DNA from: an uncultured Clostridia bacterium
Lineage (GTDB): Bacteria; Bacillota; Clostridia; Oscillospirales; Ruminococcaceae
Length of the DNA: 64,000 nucleotides
Reading direction: 5' to 3'
Assembly (NCBI GenBank): GCA_944387915.1
Contig: CALXGT010000013.1
Span: forward strand, 1-64,000
Of this stretch, positions 42,455 to 51,538 are shown in pieces. Numbering within the stretch: the first letter of the stretch is position 1; each line of letters starts with the position of its first letter. Both the position numbers and the translations under genes were made by a program. A model generated the notes under the pieces. That model made no database searches. It had not been told where the DNA came from and saw nothing but the letters and a program-made list of their open reading frames with translations.

Positions 42455-42480
42455 TTCCCATTCAAATCAAAATATCTTCA

Positions 42481-42513
42481 GGGCGCGAAACAATTTCGCG
42501 CCCTAATTTTTAT
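42481..42513 (+). terminator. Terminator after the SDR gene
   Basis: Stem GGGCGCGAAA / TTTCGCGCCC with a 3-base loop, then TAATTTTTAT. Confidence 0.88.
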
Positions 42514-42546: not shown

Positions 42547-43983
42547 TTATCGAAGCTGACTAATGGCGTCGGTAATGGTCTTCTCGTAGGCCTCCCTACC
42601 GTACTTATCCACTTCCGCCTTATTTTTCTCTCCATGAGTCAGGCATCCGGCGCCGCCAATGCAGCCGCCGACACAAGCCATACCCTCGATAAAGTTTCCG
42701 TCCAAAATCCGCTTTCTCGCCTTAAGCAAAGCGATTTTACATGCCTCGATCCCGTCGCAGGGTACCGCCTTCAGATCAAAGTTGTCCAGTCCCTGTTCCT
42801 TGAGCGCCTGGGCTACCGCGTCGGAAAGGCCGCCGCTTCGGGCAAAGATCCGTCCGTAATAGGAAGCGTTATCCAAAACTCCCTCCTCGAGGGTGGTAAT
42901 ATCAATATCCTTACTGTCGAAAAGGGCTTGCAGCTCCTCGAAGGTAATGACACTGTCGATATAAGGTTTCACTGTATCCAGCTTAAATTCCATCTTTTTC
43001 GCCGTGCAAGGCCCAATAAACACCACCTTCGCATCGGGGGTGGTCTCTTTGATATACTTCGAGATGGTGGCTACCGGAGACAGGTTATGAGAGATATGTT
43101 CCGCCAAATCGGGGAATTGCTTTTTGATATAATCCACAAAGGCGGGACAGCAGGAACTGGTCAAAAATCCCTTATCCGCTAACTCCGCCGCTTCGGAATA
43201 CGCCACCATATCGGCACCCAACGCGGCCTCCACCACGGTATGGAATCCAAGCTCCTTGATACCGGTGATGACCTGGCCTAATTTCGCGTAGGTAAACTGG
43301 CTGGAAATAGAGGGCGCTACCACGGCAAATATCTTAAATTTCTGGCTTTCCTCGCTTTTTTTGATAAGGTCAATCACGTTAAGGATGTAAGATTTATCCA
43401 TAATCGCGCCAAAGGGGCACTGATAAACGCAAGCGCCGCATGCGATGCATTTGCTGTTATCGATGGACGCGGCGCAGGTATCGTCGGTGGCCATGGAAAT
43501 GGCTCCCACCTTACAAGACCGTTCACAGGGGCGCTTATGGTTGGTAATGGCGCCGTAAGGGCAAACCTTGGCGCATGCGCCGCATTCCACGCATTTGGTC
43601 TTGTCGATCACCGCCCGCTGCTTATGGTCAAAGGTAATCGCTCCTTTTTTGCATACATCCTCGCAACGGTGTGCCAGGCATCCTCTACAGGATTCGGTGA
43701 CCTCATATCCGCTCACCGGACATTCGTCACAGGCAATGTCAATGACTTCAATGACATTGGGATTATGTTTATCGCCGCCCATAGCAATTTTGATCCGTTC
43801 CGCCAAAATCGCCCGCTCTTTATACACGCAGCAGCGCATGGTTGCCTCTTTTCCGGGAACAATTCGCTTCGGAATATCATAAAGCTTCTCCAAAAGGGTA
43901 TCGTTCCAGGCTTCCCTGGCAACCTCCCGCAGCACCTTGTATTTCAAATACTGTACTTTGGTATCAAATTTCCGTAAGGCCAC
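42547..43983 (-). CDS. Group B-type monomeric [FeFe] hydrogenase
   Basis: 478 residues. An N-terminal Cys-rich part (CDECPV, CRGCLAHRCEDVC) and two classical 4Fe-4S motifs (CVECGACAKVCP from about 131, CIACGACVYQCP from about 179) precede the H-cluster domain. Its three motifs retain all four cysteines that hold the H cluster: L1 TSSCCPAF (Cys about 278-279), L2 IGPCTAKK (about 326), L3 GMACVGGCIGG (about 437 and 441). The L1 Phe in place of Trp and the N-terminal layout fit group B, whose physiological partner is probably ferredoxin. It is last in the operon, 14 bases after the phosphatase gene. Export is unlikely (no signal). Confidence 0.88.
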   Translation of the reverse strand: MALRKFDTKVQYLKYKVLREVAREAWNDTLLEKLYDIPKRIVPGKEATMRCCVYKERAILAERIKIAMGGDKHNPNVIEVIDIACDECPVSGYEVTESCRGCLAHRCEDVCKKGAITFDHKQRAVIDKTKCVECGACAKVCPYGAITNHKRPCERSCKVGAISMATDDTCAASIDNSKCIACGACVYQCPFGAIMDKSYILNVIDLIKKSEESQKFKIFAVVAPSISSQFTYAKLGQVITGIKELGFHTVVEAALGADMVAYSEAAELADKGFLTSSCCPAFVDYIKKQFPDLAEHISHNLSPVATISKYIKETTPDAKVVFIGPCTAKKMEFKLDTVKPYIDSVITFEELQALFDSKDIDITTLEEGVLDNASYYGRIFARSGGLSDAVAQALKEQGLDNFDLKAVPCDGIEACKIALLKARKRILDGNFIEGMACVGGCIGGAGCLTHGEKNKAEVDKYGREAYEKTITDAISQLR

Positions 43984-43996
43984 TTTCCTTCCCTCC

Positions 43997-45169
43997 TTAG
44001 AAGTAACTGACTTTAATTCGTTTTCCCATCTTCTTTAAGCATTCTGAAAGCTCGGTGACCAGTTGCATTTTGATGCTGAAGGTAATGGGGAGATCGGGGT
44101 TTTGATGGGCGGGATTGATGGCTCTTCCCACAAAGAAGTTGATGTCCGTCGCTTCTTCAAAGAGAAGACGGCTGATAAGGGACGCGCCATCCCGTTTGAT
44201 GCTCCAGTGATTGTAACAGCGGTTTTCGCCAAGATAGTCTTTGGCATAGGTCAGCACCCTGTTGACGGTGATTACCCCTTCGGTCACCAAATCCACCCCT
44301 TCCAGTTCGGCAATGGGCGGAATCTCCGGATCATCAAACTCCAGTTTCGGCTTTAACGTCTTCCCTAAATATTTTGCCGCGATGGAAGAGGTAGTACCGC
44401 CGCAAATAATGTGTTTTCCTTCCTTAGAGAAAAAGAGGCTCATCATTTTGTCGCAGTCGTCCGGATTGGAAGGCGGCCCAAACAAAAGATTCATCGGCTC
44501 TCGTTTTCGGATACGAATGGTGCAAACGGTGGCGTCATCTCCCGGTTTGTGATCGTAAAGCCGGTCGCACTCATCGAGCAAAATCGTGGAGAGAGTCTTG
44601 GCGGTAAATCCCACATCGTAAAAGGTTTCCAAAAAGGAAATAATGTCCTTTCGCTGCCAGCCGAAATTATAGGCCATACCCACTCCCGCATGGGGACATC
44701 CGTCGCTCATCAGCACAAACACATCGTTCTCTTTTAAGTGAATATGGGAGCGGTAAATTTTTTTGTCCCCGATGGTCATTTCGGTTTTGGGATAGTCCCA
44801 GTTTGCTCCGTCCCGCAGCACAATAGCAAGGGGGTTATCATATTGGATAATCTCCGCGTACTCATTCTCAATGATGCGAAGAATGGTAAAGGTAGAGTAA
44901 GCAACGCCCCGCACCGAACAAACCGGGAGAGTAGCGGCAATGGTCTCTACGCAATCTTCTACGGAAAGACCCGCCACCATCATGGTGGAAATGATCTTGG
45001 AGGTCAGCGTAGAAAGAATACTTGCTTTTACGCCGCTTCCGAGGCCGTCGGCCAAAACAATGACGTTGGAGCCGTTTTCCTGCTCCACCACATCCACATG
45101 GTCTCCGCAAAGCTCCTCGCCAAAATGATTGATGCTTCGGTATCCGATATCTACGCAAAGATTATTCAT
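43997..45169 (-). CDS. SpoIIE/PP2C-family serine phosphatase
   Basis: 390 residues, soluble. The PP2C fold occupies about 1-225, with metal-binding acidic residues in ELCGDHVDVV, VLADGLGSG, LMSDGCPHAG and PGDDATV. Residues about 230-390 are an extension not recognised as a known domain. It overlaps the sensory hydrogenase gene by 8 bases, the association described for group C [FeFe] hydrogenases, which are thought to signal through phosphatases or kinases. No sporulation membrane domain is present, so it is not SpoIIE itself. Target unknown. Confidence 0.87.
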   Translation of the reverse strand: MNNLCVDIGYRSINHFGEELCGDHVDVVEQENGSNVIVLADGLGSGVKASILSTLTSKIISTMMVAGLSVEDCVETIAATLPVCSVRGVAYSTFTILRIIENEYAEIIQYDNPLAIVLRDGANWDYPKTEMTIGDKKIYRSHIHLKENDVFVLMSDGCPHAGVGMAYNFGWQRKDIISFLETFYDVGFTAKTLSTILLDECDRLYDHKPGDDATVCTIRIRKREPMNLLFGPPSNPDDCDKMMSLFFSKEGKHIICGGTTSSIAAKYLGKTLKPKLEFDDPEIPPIAELEGVDLVTEGVITVNRVLTYAKDYLGENRCYNHWSIKRDGASLISRLLFEEATDINFFVGRAINPAHQNPDLPITFSIKMQLVTELSECLKKMGKRIKVSYF

Positions 45170-46829
45170 CGGAAATCGACTCCTTTAGCTTGGTCAGCGC
45201 AATTTTGGTCTCCGCGGCCGTCTCTCCCAATAAGGAAGCGATTTCCTGGACAATGCGCATCTGTTTTTCCACTACGTTGTCGGCAACTTCAATAGTCTGA
45301 CGGCTGAATTCCTCTTTCTTTTCCCGCTCGGTCTCTTCTTCCGTAATATCCCGCATAATGCCAATGAGAACCTTATACTCTTTGTCGAAAATCACCGTCT
45401 GTTCCACATACCGGTTATACTCGGCAAGGTAGGTCTTTTGGTCGTAAACATTCTTACCGTTTTTGGCTTCCATAAACGCCTTCGGTTCCAAGATACGCAC
45501 TACCGGTTCTCCCATGACGTCGCTTTCTCTCGGGATGTTCATGATCTTGAGCGCCGCCTTATTCACCTGCTGCACTTCCAAATCCTCGTTGAGGACAATA
45601 ATCCCGTTAGGCGTATTGTTAATGATGTTGCCGGAGAAGTTTTCCGCCTTTTCCTTTAAGAAAGGAAGACACATGGACACATCGGCTTTGCCCTGGTAGA
45701 TGGCTACCGCCTTGGCGCGGCAGGTGTCATATCCGCAGGAACCGCAATTTAACTCGTCTTCCTTCTTGGTCTTGCCCATGCGGCGAAGGATCTCCTCAAT
45801 CTCGCCCTGGGAAGGAAAGCGCTGGTTCATCTCTAACATCATCCGATCCTCCCGAAGCGCTTCCGGAGAAGGCATAGAGACCGCAAAGTCCTGCTCTCTC
45901 GCATAAGAGGAGATGGATATGTAGTTGCTGACGGGAGATTTTTCCCGTTCCATAACTGGACCGCCGACACAGCTTCCCACACAGGCGGACATCTCGATAA
46001 AGCAATGGTGAATATTGCCGTTTCGAAGGTCCTTTAATACCGAGATACAGTTTTCTGTTCCATCAATGGTGAGATAGGTATAATTGTCGGGCTTGATTGT
46101 CATACTCTTCAAAATACCGCCCGCCGTTGGGAAAAAGCGAGCGCGGCCCTTATCATCTTCCTGTGTGCGGGAGGCAATCTCGATTTTCTCTTCCTTGAGC
46201 CACTCGCTTAACTCCTCAAAGGTCATAACCGCATCTACCAGATCTCCTAAATCCGCCTCGTCCTTTTTCGCGACGCAAGGACCGATAAACACCGTCTTGG
46301 CGTTGGGAATCCGCTTTTTGATCTCCTGACAATGCGCTTCCATGGGAGTTAGAATGTTAATCAGATATGGAAGCATATCGGGAAAATGCTTTTGAATCAG
46401 AAGGTTTACGGAATGGCAGCAGGAAGTAATCATCACATCCCGCGTCCCTTCTTGCAAAAGGCGTTCATATTCCTTTTTTACAATAGTAGCGCCAATCGCC
46501 GTCTCCTCCGCGTCGGCAAATCCCAATTTCTTCAGCGCATCCCGCATCTCCTCGATACCGGCGCCTTTATAGTTGGCGGCAAAAGAAGGGGCGAGACTAA
46601 CCACAACGGGATCATTGGACGCGAGCAGGACCTTAACCTTCTCCCGCTCGTCGGCAATTTCCTTCGCTCCCTGAGGACATACCACAAAACACTGTCCGCA
46701 AAGGATACATTCGTCTCCTACAATATGCGCCTGGTTACCGGAAAAACGAATGGCTTTTACCGGACAGTGGCGAATACATTTATAGCAATTTTTACAGTTG
46801 GATTTTTTTAATCTTAAATATTCAGCCAT
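45162..46829 (-). CDS. Sensory group C [FeFe] hydrogenase with PAS domain (HydS-like)
   Basis: 555 residues. Two 4Fe-4S motifs (Cys 12/15/18/22 and 41/44/47/51), an H-cluster domain (about 70-300) with all four ligand positions kept (TSCCHS 135-140, GPCVAKKDE with Cys 185, SACVGSC with Cys 283 and 287), another Fe-S motif CGSCGYDTC...C (362-387), a PAS domain (about 398-505) and a charged helical tail. L1 lacks the usual Pro-x-Trp, as in presumed sensory enzymes. The start at 46829 is chosen because the upstream ATG has no ribosome binding site. Predicted to sense H2 or redox state and to signal through the overlapping phosphatase gene. Confidence 0.88.
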   Translation of the reverse strand: MAEYLRLKKSNCKNCYKCIRHCPVKAIRFSGNQAHIVGDECILCGQCFVVCPQGAKEIADEREKVKVLLASNDPVVVSLAPSFAANYKGAGIEEMRDALKKLGFADAEETAIGATIVKKEYERLLQEGTRDVMITSCCHSVNLLIQKHFPDMLPYLINILTPMEAHCQEIKKRIPNAKTVFIGPCVAKKDEADLGDLVDAVMTFEELSEWLKEEKIEIASRTQEDDKGRARFFPTAGGILKSMTIKPDNYTYLTIDGTENCISVLKDLRNGNIHHCFIEMSACVGSCVGGPVMEREKSPVSNYISISSYAREQDFAVSMPSPEALREDRMMLEMNQRFPSQGEIEEILRRMGKTKKEDELNCGSCGYDTCRAKAVAIYQGKADVSMCLPFLKEKAENFSGNIINNTPNGIIVLNEDLEVQQVNKAALKIMNIPRESDVMGEPVVRILEPKAFMEAKNGKNVYDQKTYLAEYNRYVEQTVIFDKEYKVLIGIMRDITEEETEREKKEEFSRQTIEVADNVVEKQMRIVQEIASLLGETAAETKIALTKLKESISDE

Positions 46830-46918
46830 AAAATCGATTCCTTTCGGGATTCCGGCTGCCATAGCAATCGGAAAAATCGGCCGAAAGAAGCGCTCTCCCG
46901 GCCGAAACAGTCATTTCC

Positions 46919-47164
46919 TCACAATTTACTTGCAATTTCCTTTTCGAAAAATTCCGGAAAGCTCTCTTTGGTAACGCCGGTGAAAATCTCGTCATCCACC
47001 TGGATAGTCACACCCACCCGATTGCATTTTCCGGTACAGAAACTTCCGGCCAAAGTAATTTCATCTTCCAGTTTCCGATCCGAAATGGTTTTTTGCATCA
47101 TTTCCACAATATCTCTGGAACCTTTTAAGTGGCAGGAACTTCCGATACAAATCTGAACGATCAT
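46919..47164 (-). CDS. Thioredoxin-like [2Fe-2S] ferredoxin (copy 2 of a tandem pair)
   Basis: 81-residue single-domain protein resembling the NuoE/HydC-type thioredoxin-like ferredoxin. Four Cys: ICIGSSCHLKGS at the start and GSFCTGKCN in the middle, the usual CxxxxC and CxxxC spacing of a 2Fe-2S cluster. The start overlaps the stop of the first copy by four bases (ATGA). The proteins share the N-terminal block but differ after residue 20. A probable electron carrier or adaptor for the adjacent hydrogenases. Confidence 0.88.
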   Translation of the reverse strand: MIVQICIGSSCHLKGSRDIVEMMQKTISDRKLEDEITLAGSFCTGKCNRVGVTIQVDDEIFTGVTKESFPEFFEKEIASKL

Positions 47165-47406
47165 GCTTTCGCCTTGGGAAGCACTTCCGTCGCAAAGAAA
47201 TCCTTGGTGGTTTCCGGCGTCAGCGAGTAGAATTTGTCATCCAGCGTGACGCAAACCCCGTTTTTGCAATTTCCCATGCAGAAGGTTCCGGCCAGCTCCA
47301 CCTCGTCTTTCAGATGATTTTCCGAAATGAGATACTGTAAGCTCTCTACGATTTGTCTGGATCCTTTCAAATGGCAGGAGCTTCCGATACATACGGTAAT
47401 TTTCAT
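47161..47406 (-). CDS. Thioredoxin-like [2Fe-2S] ferredoxin (copy 1 of a tandem pair)
   Basis: 81 residues, paralogous to the next gene: KITVCIGSSCHLKGSRQIVE at the start and GTFCMGNCKNGVCV in the middle (one extra Cys). Such small proteins often accompany HydS-like hydrogenases. It starts 12 bases after the kinase gene and is fused in translation with the following copy. A duplication followed by divergence is the simplest explanation for the pair. Confidence 0.88.
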   Translation of the reverse strand: MKITVCIGSSCHLKGSRQIVESLQYLISENHLKDEVELAGTFCMGNCKNGVCVTLDDKFYSLTPETTKDFFATEVLPKAKA

Positions 47407-47418
47407 ACGGCCCTCCTA

Positions 47419-48168
47419 TTATTCGTAATCCACAACATTGACCCAGGAGAGAAGGAACTCCCGCTCCTTGGGATTGCCCTTTACCGACTGGGAAGCGGCG
47501 ACGATAGGAAGCCATTTTTGTACGTACTGTTTGGCGGTATCGCTCTTCTTGCAGAAAAGGTTCAGATACTTTTCCGCTCCTTCCATATTGCCGTCCAACC
47601 AGAAGAGAAGATAGGTCCTTGCCACATCCGCCGAAGCGTTGCCCTGAGTGGCGTGGCTCCAGTCTAAGATGTAGGGAACTCCCTCATCCGTAATGATGAT
47701 GTTGGAGAAGTTAAAGTCGCCGTGGCAAACCTTATTATGTTTGGGCATACCCTCGAGGCGAGTGTGCAGCTCATAGCGGGTAGTGGCATCCAAATCGGCG
47801 CTGCTGATCTTCCGGTTCATTTTGTCTTTCAGTTTGGTCAGAAGAGGAGAGGTCTTGCTGTGCACTTCAAGCTGGAGGTCCACAAAAAGGTTCAAATACT
47901 CATCGAAGCGATCGGGATTTTCCTCCACGAGCTGCGCCAACGTCTTTCCCTTGATATACTCGGAGATAATAGCCCATTTCCCGTCGATCATAGATACGCC
48001 AAGAATCTTGGGAATGTTTAAACCGGTCTCTTCGATACGAGCCTGGTTCAAGGCTTCATTTAAAATATCCGCTTTGGAGTAATCGTTGTCAAACAGTTTA
48101 ATTACTTTGTCGCCGTCCCGATAGACGGTTTTTCCGGTTCTGACTGCAATAATGCGTTCCAGATTCAT
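47419..48168 (-). CDS. APH/choline-kinase-fold phosphotransferase
   Basis: 249-residue protein-kinase-like phosphotransferase. The catalytic loop is VCHGDFNFSNIII (Asp about 148, Asn about 153) and the metal-binding motif is ILDWSHAT. The N-lobe has DGDKVIKLFD with the ATP-binding Lys and an SEYIKGKTL hinge. This fold includes aminoglycoside kinases but also small-molecule and protein kinases. Genomic setting (between adhE and hydrogenase genes) argues for a metabolic or signalling role, perhaps opposite to the phosphatase downstream. 11 bases after adhE. Confidence 0.82.
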   Translation of the reverse strand: MNLERIIAVRTGKTVYRDGDKVIKLFDNDYSKADILNEALNQARIEETGLNIPKILGVSMIDGKWAIISEYIKGKTLAQLVEENPDRFDEYLNLFVDLQLEVHSKTSPLLTKLKDKMNRKISSADLDATTRYELHTRLEGMPKHNKVCHGDFNFSNIIITDEGVPYILDWSHATQGNASADVARTYLLFWLDGNMEGAEKYLNLFCKKSDTAKQYVQKWLPIVAASQSVKGNPKEREFLLSWVNVVDYE

Positions 48169-48179
48169 AATGCTCCTCC

Positions 48180-50792
48180 TTATGCGTTCTCGCCGTAGTA
48201 GGCTCTCAGGTACATGTCCTTAATCTCGCTCATCAAAGGATAACGGGGGTTGGCGCCGGTGCACTGGTCATCGAAAGCCTGCTCCACCATATCGTCCAAC
48301 CGGTCTAAGAAGTCTTTCTCATCAATACCGTATTCCTTGATGGTCTTCTTAATGCCGATCTTCTCTTTCAACTCATCGATGCCCTTAATCAAAGCTTCCA
48401 GCTTCTCTTCATCGGTCTTGCCCTTGAAGCCAAGGTAATCAGCAACTTCCGCATAACGAGCTAAGGTATGAGGATGATCGTACTGGGAGAAGGTACCCAT
48501 CTTTAAGGGCGCCTCAGCAGCGTTAAAGCGAAGAACCTCGTCGATCATCAACGCGTTGGCAATACCGTGAGGCAGATGATGGAACGCGCCCAGCTTATGC
48601 GCCATAGAGTGGCAGACGCCTAAGAACGCGTTGGCAAAAGCCATACCGGCCATGGTCGCCGCGTTGGCCATCTTCTCTCTGGCAACCGGATCGTTGGGAC
48701 CGTTGTCGTAAGCTCTGGGGAGGTATTCGAAGATCATCTTCAAAGCCCGCATCGCCAGACCGTCGGTGTAATCGGTCGCCATCACCGAAGCGATCGCTTC
48801 CAGCGCATGGGTGACCGCATCAATACCAGATGCAGAGGTCAGGCTCTTGGGAGCGGTCATATGAAGATCCGCGTCTACGATCGCCATATTGGGCATCAGC
48901 TCGTAGTCCGCTAATGGATATTTTACGCCGGTCTTCTCGTCAGTGATAACCGCAAAGGGGGTAACCTCAGAACCGGTACCAGCGGAGGTGGGGATGGCGA
49001 TGAAGTACGCCTTTTCGCCCATCTTCGGGAAGGTATAAACTCTCTTGCGGATATCGATAAAGCGCATCGCCATATCCATAAAGTCCGCCTCGGGATGCTC
49101 GTACATCACCCACATGATCTTCGCAGCGTCCATAGGAGAACCACCGCCCAAGGCGATGATGACATCCGGCTCAAAAGCGCGCATCAATTCGGTACCCTCT
49201 TTGGCGCAAGCTAAAGTGGGATCGGGAGCGACGTTGGAGAAGGTGGTATGGATAATGCCCATCTCGTCTAACTTATCGGTGACCGCTTTGGTAAAGCCGC
49301 TCTTATATAAGAAGCTATCGGTAACGATAAAGGCTCTCTTCTTGCCCATGACCGTCTTAAGCTCATCCAAGGCGACAGGCAGGCATCCTTTCTTAATGTA
49401 TACTTTCTCCGGTGCTCTGAACCAAAGCATATTTTCCCTTCTTTCCGCAACGGTCTTGATGTTCAATAAGTGTTTCACGCCGACGTTCTCGCTCACCGAG
49501 TTGCCACCCCAGGAGCCGCATCCAAGGGTCAGAGAAGGAGCCAGCTTGAAGTTATACAGATCACCGATACCGCCATGAGAAGAGGGAGTATTGACCAAAA
49601 TACGGCAGGTTTTCATCCGATTGGCAAAGGCGTCGATCTTCGCTTTTTCCGTTACCGCATTCAGATAAATGGAAGAAGTATGACCGTAACCGCCGTCCGC
49701 GATTAAATGCTCCGCTTTATCGAACGCGTCGTCCAAATCCTTCGCCCGGTACATCGCCAAAACGGGAGACAGTTTTTCGTGGGCGAATTCCTCGCTGATA
49801 TCTACCGACTCCACTTCACCGATGAGGACCTTGGTGTTCTCGGGAACCTCAACGTTGGCAAGAGAGGCAATGGTGTGCGCGGTCTGACCTACGATCTTGG
49901 CGTTCAAAGCGCCGTTAATCAAAATGGTCTTTCTGACCTTCTCGGTCTCTTCGGGATTGAGGAAATAGCATCCTCTGTAGGCGAATTCCTTTTTGACCTT
50001 GTCGTAGATCTTATCCAAAACGATAACCGACTGCTCGGAAGCGCAGATCATACCGTTATCAAAAGTCTTGGAGTGAATGATGGAGTTGACCGCCAAAAGG
50101 ATGTCCGCGGTATCGTCGATAATAGCGGGCGTATTGCCGGCGCCAACGCCCAAAGCCGGCTTACCGCTGGAATAAGCGGATTTGACCATGCCGGGGCCGC
50201 CGGTAGCGAGAATAACATCCAGCTCTTTCATAATGGTAGTGGTCATCTCTAAGCTGGGAACGTCGATCCAGGAAATGATGTCCTCGGGAGCGCCCGCAGC
50301 AACCGCCGCTTCCAAAACCACTTTCGCCGCCGCAATGGTGGATTTTTTCGCTCTGGGGTGGGGGCTGATGATAATGCCGTTGCGGGTCTTTAAAGCGATC
50401 AAAGTTTTAAAAATAGCCGTGGACGTGGGGTTGGTGGTAGGAATGATCGCCGCAATCACGCCAAGGGGTTCCGCGACCTTCATAATGCCGAAGGTTTCGT
50501 CCCGCTCAATAATTCCCACCGTCTTGGTGTTCTTATATGCGTTATAAATGTACTCCGCCGCGTAGTTGTTTTTAATTACCTTATCCTCTACGACGCCCAT
50601 ACCGGTCTCTTCCACCGCCATTTTCGCGAGAGGGAGTCTGGCTTTATTCGCCGCGATAGCAGCCGCTTTGAAAATCTTGTCCACCTGCTCTTGAGAATAG
50701 GTGGAAAATTTCTTTTGCGCCGCTCTGACGCGCTCGATGGAGGCTAACAACGCGTCCATGCTGTCAATCACCGGGTAAACTTTCTGTTTCAT
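48180..50792 (-). CDS. adhE: Bifunctional acetaldehyde-CoA/alcohol dehydrogenase
   Basis: Reduces acetyl-CoA to ethanol in two NADH-dependent steps, recycling NAD+ during fermentation. 870 residues. The N-terminal CoA-acylating aldehyde dehydrogenase (about 1-440) has the catalytic Cys in NGMICASEQS. The C-terminal iron alcohol dehydrogenase (about 455-870) has GGGSPMDAAK and the iron-site His in HSMAHKLGAFHHLPHG. First gene of the operon that continues into the kinase, ferredoxins and hydrogenases; a Rex-type operator overlaps its promoter. Confidence 0.97.
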   Translation of the reverse strand: MKQKVYPVIDSMDALLASIERVRAAQKKFSTYSQEQVDKIFKAAAIAANKARLPLAKMAVEETGMGVVEDKVIKNNYAAEYIYNAYKNTKTVGIIERDETFGIMKVAEPLGVIAAIIPTTNPTSTAIFKTLIALKTRNGIIISPHPRAKKSTIAAAKVVLEAAVAAGAPEDIISWIDVPSLEMTTTIMKELDVILATGGPGMVKSAYSSGKPALGVGAGNTPAIIDDTADILLAVNSIIHSKTFDNGMICASEQSVIVLDKIYDKVKKEFAYRGCYFLNPEETEKVRKTILINGALNAKIVGQTAHTIASLANVEVPENTKVLIGEVESVDISEEFAHEKLSPVLAMYRAKDLDDAFDKAEHLIADGGYGHTSSIYLNAVTEKAKIDAFANRMKTCRILVNTPSSHGGIGDLYNFKLAPSLTLGCGSWGGNSVSENVGVKHLLNIKTVAERRENMLWFRAPEKVYIKKGCLPVALDELKTVMGKKRAFIVTDSFLYKSGFTKAVTDKLDEMGIIHTTFSNVAPDPTLACAKEGTELMRAFEPDVIIALGGGSPMDAAKIMWVMYEHPEADFMDMAMRFIDIRKRVYTFPKMGEKAYFIAIPTSAGTGSEVTPFAVITDEKTGVKYPLADYELMPNMAIVDADLHMTAPKSLTSASGIDAVTHALEAIASVMATDYTDGLAMRALKMIFEYLPRAYDNGPNDPVAREKMANAATMAGMAFANAFLGVCHSMAHKLGAFHHLPHGIANALMIDEVLRFNAAEAPLKMGTFSQYDHPHTLARYAEVADYLGFKGKTDEEKLEALIKGIDELKEKIGIKKTIKEYGIDEKDFLDRLDDMVEQAFDDQCTGANPRYPLMSEIKDMYLRAYYGENA

Positions 50793-50842: not shown

Positions 50843-51538
50843 TTACGTAGGATGTTGCTCTCTTAAGCTTGTTAATATTTTAACAGTTATCCTATGCTTT
50901 GTAAAATGTAAAATTGATATAGGCATTATGCTAATTATGATATAACAAACTTTAGTAAAAAAGACGAAAAAGGATCGTCTCTTTGGGCGGCAAATCATTG
51001 CCAGAGCTTCCTCTACATCGGGCATATCTACCAAATCGGCAGCATAGTGGGCGTGCGCCACCGTCAAATCCTTCTCCAGTATGAAGAAAGCGGGCAGCTG
51101 CTGTTCGTTGCCTTCGTATTCGCCATGGGTAATGCCCATTTCTCGAATCGCGTTAAATTTCTTCGCCATTCGTTCCTTCCCCGCCTCGCTTTCCGGGCGA
51201 AGCTGTTCCATCGACTGGGCAGGATCAATGGAAAGGCTGCGGTAAATTTCCTGATCCGGATCGCAAAGGATCTCGAAAGGAAGTCCCCCGGGGTAAGTCT
51301 TTCGAATATTTTCGACGCTGCTTTGCATCAATACCAGCAAAGAAACGCCTTTTTTGGCAAACGCTTCGGCATGGGAAGAGAGCTCATCCACGTCATACCG
51401 GCAACTGGGGCAGCCGATATACCGAAGCACCCAGATAAGGGTCTTTTTTTGAACTATCTCCGAAAGTCGGCAAGAGCCGCGAAACGCGGTTTGAACCAAA
51501 AAATCCGGCATTTTTTCTCCTGGCTTGATTCTCGCCAT
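50843..51538 (-). CDS. Peroxiredoxin-like (AhpC/TSA) protein with anomalous C-terminal tail
   Basis: 231 residues. Residues 1-180 form an AhpC/TSA-type thioredoxin fold with the redox site YIGCPSCRYD (two Cys about 43 and 46) and the later PAFFILEKD. Such proteins reduce peroxides or thiols. From about residue 182 the frame continues for about 50 residues (RRSFFVFFTKVCYIIISIMPISILHF) through a hairpin resembling its own terminator and through the adhE promoter and Rex box. Homologues of this fold normally end near here, so the tail looks like a lost stop codon or a small frameshift. Monocistronic. Confidence 0.75.
   Translation of the reverse strand: MARIKPGEKMPDFLVQTAFRGSCRLSEIVQKKTLIWVLRYIGCPSCRYDVDELSSHAEAFAKKGVSLLVLMQSSVENIRKTYPGGLPFEILCDPDQEIYRSLSIDPAQSMEQLRPESEAGKERMAKKFNAIREMGITHGEYEGNEQQLPAFFILEKDLTVAHAHYAADLVDMPDVEEALAMICRPKRRSFFVFFTKVCYIIISIMPISILHFTKHRITVKILTSLREQHPT
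50869..50886. promoter_or_regulatory. Rex operator upstream of adhE
   Basis: On the minus strand CTGTTAAAATATTAACAA: TGTTAA-N4-TTAACA, the core of the Rex consensus TTGTTAANNNNTTAACAA with one mismatch at the edge. It covers the -10 hexamer, so a bound repressor blocks the operon when NADH/NAD+ is low. rex itself is not in this window. Confidence 0.85.
50877..50905 (-). promoter_or_regulatory. Promoter of the adhE-hydrogenase operon
   Basis: -35 TTTACA (50905-50900), 17-base spacer, -10 TAAAAT (50882-50877), 84 bases before the adhE ATG, overlapped by the Rex operator. Confidence 0.78.
50955..50980 (-). terminator. Terminator-like hairpin inside the 3' end of the peroxiredoxin frame
   Basis: Stem AGACGA / TCGTCT with a loop of about 7 bases followed by TTTTTTA on the minus strand, close to where a normal peroxiredoxin would end and just upstream of the adhE promoter. 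Confidence 0.6.

Follow-up and report, generated by a model that had tools for sequence, protein, structure and literature searches.

An APH-fold kinase in a HydS-hydrogenase operon of Clostridia is primarily a partner of adhE

The APH-fold kinase encoded in the window, a stretch of 64,000 nucleotides from an uncultured Clostridia bacterium of the Ruminococcaceae, is primarily a partner of adhE, which it follows more closely than it follows the sensory hydrogenase HydS and the PP2C phosphatase of the same operon; this linkage is new here. The earlier note on this DNA had proposed a dedicated kinase/phosphatase pair around an H2 sensor that would act as a signalling switch. The switch interpretation as a whole is partly supported, and the dedicated pairing of kinase against PP2C does not hold as a general rule. 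The kinase is most likely a phosphotransferase of the AdhE/ethanol branch that is sometimes coupled to H2 sensing. The whole explanation, in which an APH/choline-kinase-fold phosphotransferase is first of all a component of the AdhE (ethanol) module, probably has an ethanol-branch protein as its substrate and is linked to H2 in some cases, is given a probability of about 0.45.

The kinase gene (47419-48168, minus strand) encodes 249 residues and starts with an ATG that is preceded by a good Shine-Dalgarno sequence, AGGAGG, and separated by 11 bp from the adhE stop codon. The 2.03 Mb genome has three APH-domain genes, this one included. The protein belongs to the APH superfamily, with a score of 49.4 bits against Pfam PF01636 (gathering cut-off 23.2), and the catalytic motifs HGDFNFSN (residues 149-156) and DW (residues 169-170), which the earlier note had described as intact, are indeed so. 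The β3 Lys (K24), the αC Glu (E38), H149-D151, N156 and the metal-binding D169 are all in place, and these motifs suggest an active kinase. Among 154 kinase homologues, all but 11 retain K24, E38, H149, G150, D151, N156, D169 and W170; none of these 11 sits in an adhE-kinase-HydS arrangement, and the losses are confined to distant copies. Seven sister kinases (L093, L095, L096, L097, L099, L102 and L103) have HGN for HGD, the catalytic Asp being replaced by Asn. Sisters of this type are mostly found in unrelated contexts, beside P-type ATPase or DUF368-like genes, while in L093 and L095 the kinase is located 310-369 bp upstream of adhE, not downstream. Among the HydS-only kinases from genomes without a close AdhE, the one in L098 has its DFG-type Asp changed to Gly, from which a pseudogene state appears possible, and the one in L100 has HCD for HGD.

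The AlphaFold2 model of the kinase, made with 29 relatives, has a mean pLDDT of 92.7 and a pTM of 0.89. In Foldseek its best matches are APH(3′)-Ia (E 1.4e-9), APH(4)-Ia (TM 0.70) and the choline kinase LicA, which share the fold and the catalytic motifs; however, the kinase is only about 15% identical to them and stays under the cut-offs of their specific family models. LicA is also the top sequence-profile match among solved structures. The top-scoring NCBIfam model is TIGR02172, yet its score of 69.3 bits is well below the cut-off of 228.2. CcrZ (25.6 against 400), thiamine kinase (31.5 against 299) and Bud32 (31.9 against 125) also remain below their cut-offs, and a weak RIO1 match lies above its own (28.9 bits against 22). 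Neither the model scores nor the profile search of solved structures singles out a family model or structure that fixes a small-molecule substrate.

The operon runs in one direction with short gaps, from a Rex-type operator through adhE, the kinase, two [2Fe-2S] proteins, HydS and a SpoIIE-type PP2C to an [FeFe] hydrogenase, which is the layout of the hydS-adhE operons of R. albus and C. thermocellum. The single operon with HydS, the phosphatase and the hydrogenase is thus as the earlier note had it, and so is the position of adhE directly upstream of the kinase, but two ferredoxin-like genes separate the kinase from HydS. The adhE gene (48180-50792, minus strand) encodes a bifunctional acetaldehyde-CoA/alcohol dehydrogenase (NF010378 equivalog, 1404 bits, cut-off 951). 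Downstream of the kinase lie two short thioredoxin-like [2Fe-2S] ferredoxins of 81 residues each, A (47161-47406, minus strand; PF01257, 36.6 bits) and B (46919-47164, minus strand; PF01257, 33.5 bits). HydS (45162-46862, minus strand; PF02906, PF04060 and PF00989) has the features of a sensory (group C) [FeFe] hydrogenase, with an H-cluster domain (PF02906, 172.9 bits), an FeS domain and a PAS domain (28 bits), and is a putative H2 sensor. The phosphatase (43997-45169, minus strand) is of the SpoIIE/RsbU type (PF07228, 54.8 bits against 25), with D41, D156, D211 and D212 as invariant metal-binding residues and the SpoIIE phosphatase domain as its best Foldseek match. Its C-terminal domain (residues about 227-390), which has no Pfam match, contains invariant GGT, TEGV, DGA and N-AH motifs, is modelled fairly confidently and is a candidate HydS-contact domain. 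The output enzyme is an [FeFe] hydrogenase (42547-43983, minus strand) of the TIGR04105 (‘monomeric’) type, with 564 bits against a cut-off of 450, and a terminator-like hairpin (42478-42506, minus strand) marks the end of the operon. Another hairpin followed by a T-run, in the gap between ferredoxin B and HydS (46877-46905, minus strand; 13-pair stem, TTTTT, z = -3.3 against shuffles), could attenuate HydS, PP2C and hydrogenase relative to adhE and the kinase. In most related loci the gap before HydS is too short for such a hairpin.

The Rex-type operator, TTGTTAATATTTTAACAG (50869-50886), has one mismatch to TTGTTAA-N4-TTAACAA and overlaps with the -10 box of the promoter-like site (50905-50877, minus strand) that precedes adhE. 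Within the window it is the sole match to the pattern at two mismatches or fewer. Since the genome-wide reversed control also gives one match, the match count alone is no proof, and the argument comes from position and recurrence: ahead of adhE-kinase, such sites occur at one mismatch or fewer in 26 of 96 related loci and in none of the 96 shuffled ones. Control of the operon by Rex is inferred on these grounds. In a clustering of the flanking genes, 42 loci have Rex-like proteins and 58 a LysR-type regulator, which rules out that rex is invariably beside adhE.

The operon architecture is already known from C. thermocellum, and the idea of a kinase linked to the sensor is already in print for R. 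albus. The C. thermocellum cluster Cthe_0422-0430, whose genes are strongly co-regulated, contains Rex (0422), AdhE (0423), an ‘aminoglycoside phosphotransferase’ (0424), 0425, the sensory hydrogenase HydS (0426), SpoIIE (0427) and a bifurcating hydrogenase. From adhE to the phosphatase, the genes stand in the identical order in the window. However, rex is part of the cluster in C. thermocellum, and the last place is taken by a trimeric bifurcating hydrogenase, while in the genome studied here rex is elsewhere (G000:C7) and the TIGR04105-type hydrogenase comes last. Acetivibrio mesophilus (L188) has a 75% identical kinase and the gene order of C. thermocellum. A deletion of the hfs operon has been published for C. 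thermocellum (Clo1313_1796-1793); it spans neither the expected position of the kinase nor adhE. For R. albus, a hydS-hydA2-adhE transcriptional unit was reportedly described by Zheng et al. in 2014. As in the window, adhE, HydS, a Ser/Thr phosphatase and a hydrogenase are in a single cluster there; the cluster with adhE, HydS and the phosphatase is 111-fold lower in co-culture, for which direct H2 sensing was proposed (PMC6776011). According to a passage in Eminoglu et al. (PMC5707799), Zheng et al. proposed that HydS signals through PAS to an adjacent Ser/Thr kinase, which may belong to the same family as the kinase of the window. The Thermoanaerobacterium hfsABCD operon, in which HfsB corresponds to HydS and HfsC to the phosphatase, has the same module of HydS, phosphatase and hydrogenase and regulates ethanol yield; unlike the operon in the window, which has both genes, this four-gene operon is described without a kinase and with adhE elsewhere. 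Deletion of hfsB in T. saccharolyticum raises adhE transcripts 2-3 fold and increases the NADH-ADH but not the NADH-ALDH activity, which its authors read as possible post-transcriptional control.

The primary linkage to adhE is seen in two sets of genomes, an order sample of 197, searched with the kinase, HydS, PP2C and AdhE and cross-tabulated from hand-entered match lists, and a class-wide sample of 291, few of them common to both. The sampled genomes are related and Fisher probabilities are therefore too small, so that the counts carry the argument. In the order, 51 genomes have an operon-type kinase together with a close AdhE, 7 have the kinase without AdhE and 13 have AdhE without the kinase. 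The kinase occurs with a close HydS in 32 genomes and without one in 26, of which 24 (of 58 kinase genomes) lack both a HydS homologue and this PP2C, and 11-13 of the 45 genomes with a close HydS lack the kinase. Across the class, kinase and AdhE occur together in 63 genomes, the kinase alone in 3, AdhE alone in 28 and neither in 197; the corresponding numbers for HydS are 28 with both, 38 with the kinase alone and 16 with HydS alone. Of 68 kinase copies, 58 come directly after adhE and 22 precede HydS. In 33 of the 66 kinase genomes of the class, adhE-kinase is kept without any HydS homologue, and no kinase genome in this sample is without both AdhE and HydS. The pairing of HydS with PP2C, by comparison, is near-obligate (together in 56 of the 60 order genomes with either, separate in 4), and their operons often have no kinase. 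Co-occurrence of kinase and HydS, which the earlier note had offered as a check, is nevertheless above chance. All 7 kinase genomes of the order that lack a close AdhE carry HydS; of the genomes without a close AdhE, the kinase is in 7/18 with HydS versus 0/115 others, and among the AdhE genomes of the class it is present in 25/26 with HydS versus 38/65 others.

Neighbourhoods of 73 kinases from the order and of the 80 best GTDB matches fall into three states: adhE-kinase alone, the full adhE-kinase-ferredoxin-HydS-PP2C-hydrogenase arrangement, and kinase-ferredoxin-HydS-PP2C without adhE. Upstream of the kinase is adhE in 76 of the 80 GTDB loci, which were picked by similarity and over-represent close relatives. 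Since the arrangement is seen again in dozens of genomes, it is not due to chance. Four genomes of the order (G075, G040, G115 and G009) have two kinase copies, one with the adhE cluster and one with the HydS cluster. In L144 and L160, HydS and PP2C have been exchanged jointly for a pair of 40-44% identity (41-43% in L144), and the kinase is still 77-79% identical (77% in L144); the adhE beside the exchanged pair is 85% identical in L144 and is cut off by the contig end in L160. The HydS operons of L217-L219 are preceded by an AdhE of about 50% identity without a kinase (directly ahead of HydS in L218 and L219). Against the AdhE-branch view, AdhE of 78-85% identity is also found without an adjacent kinase. 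In a tree of 74 kinases, whose inner forks are poorly supported, HydS-only copies are mainly within or near adhE clades, and the adhE-less ones are on long branches.

Distances were measured to a panel of 44 complete adhE-kinase-HydS operons. For the kinases of six adhE-less HydS operons (L089, L091, L092, L094, L098 and L100) they amount to 0.69-0.88, 2-3 times the typical 0.27, while HydS (0.35-0.44 versus 0.36) and PP2C (0.27-0.32 versus 0.29) stay close to the panel values. Loss of HydS costs the kinase less than loss of adhE (kinase/AdhE distance ratio 1.77 versus 1.50). In adhE-only groups purifying selection on the kinase is strong (dN/dS about 0.01-0.05), as it is on AdhE. Purifying selection also acts on the kinase of the HydS-only genus g13 (dN/dS 0.05-0.08), as on its HydS and PP2C, which rules out that the HydS-only kinases of that genus are pseudogenes.

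In the preferred explanation, the operon would consist of two modules, one of adhE and the kinase with redox control, the other of HydS and PP2C, an H2 sensor with its phosphatase. Transcription would start at the Rex-type operator, so that AdhE and the kinase are co-produced at high NADH. The kinase would then phosphorylate an ethanol-branch protein, either AdhE or one of its regulators, and thereby set AdhE activity after translation. The ferredoxin-like proteins, HydS, PP2C and hydrogenase would form a second, separable module, which is joined to the first in one operon in part of the lineages; where HydS-PP2C is present, an H2 signal could reach the same ethanol branch. A protein substrate is slightly favoured because of the kinase duplication, the strict operon linkage and the hfsB deletion, which alters the ADH but not the ALDH activity of AdhE. 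That small-molecule kinases are the nearest folds of the model counts against it, and AdhE as the target is a weak suggestion. Since seven genomes of the order have kinase and HydS without a close AdhE, AdhE cannot be the sole substrate everywhere. Comparison of AdhE from genomes with and without the kinase (102 versus 13, related and unequal sets) gave no convincing phosphosite column; T289, at 95% versus 46%, is the sole Ser/Thr among the differing columns. A literature search for phosphorylated AdhE or a spirosome kinase found nothing relevant. A bolder proposal is improbable as it stands: in gut and cellulolytic Clostridia the kinase would be dedicated to regulating AdhE, or AdhE filaments, after translation, having evolved with adhE and later joined H2 sensing via HydS and PP2C.

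The switch itself, in which HydS senses H2 and acts through its PAS domain on the kinase, on PP2C or on both, and in which kinase and PP2C oppose each other on one protein, is doubtful, even though it has already been put forward for R. albus in the proposal cited above. Its best evidence, which also speaks against the AdhE-branch view, is that in complete loci the kinase distances correlate better with those of HydS (0.77) and PP2C (0.79) than with those of AdhE (0.64). The operon shared with HydS in many genomes, the co-occurrence above chance with and without AdhE, the HydS-like constraint on the kinase in genus g13 and the second kinase copy beside HydS in four genomes fit it too. On the other hand, HydS is absent from half of the kinase genomes in the class, a quarter or so of the order genomes with a close HydS (11-13/45) lack the kinase, and it is the kinase alone that diverges fast in the six adhE-less operons. 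The usual substrates of SpoIIE-type phosphatases are STAS proteins that have been phosphorylated by kinases of the RsbW/SpoIIAB type. A STAS gene adjoins an RsbW-like HATPase gene in this genome, so that PP2C has other possible partners and needs no APH-fold counterpart, although this may be just the sporulation pair.

A kinase for a metabolite tied to ethanol/acetaldehyde metabolism (for example an alcohol, amino alcohol, sugar or thiamine-like compound) would agree with the aminoglycoside and choline kinases as best structural neighbours, with LicA as the top profile match and with the weak, sub-threshold thiamine kinase and CcrZ matches. It is rather unlikely: a housekeeping enzyme is not expected to be duplicated separately for the adhE and HydS clusters, nor to be so operon-bound that every class-level kinase genome has AdhE or HydS. 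As for aminoglycoside resistance, which the APH fold and the C. thermocellum annotation might suggest, the scores for APH(3′) (26.5 bits against an NCBIfam equivalog cut-off of 205) and APH(4) (20.2 against 725) reach no resistance model, and the operon with adhE is conserved class-wide. Such an enzyme is dismissed as extremely improbable, in agreement with the earlier note.

With this comparison, the unit to look at becomes AdhE with its kinase, in place of a kinase/phosphatase pair centred on HydS, and the C. thermocellum homologue Cthe_0424 is a genetically tractable test gene. If the kinase does regulate AdhE, the ethanol/acetate branch point would be under phosphorylation control. The split between ethanol, acetate and H2 in rumen and cellulolytic Clostridia bears on methane formation and on biofuel yield.
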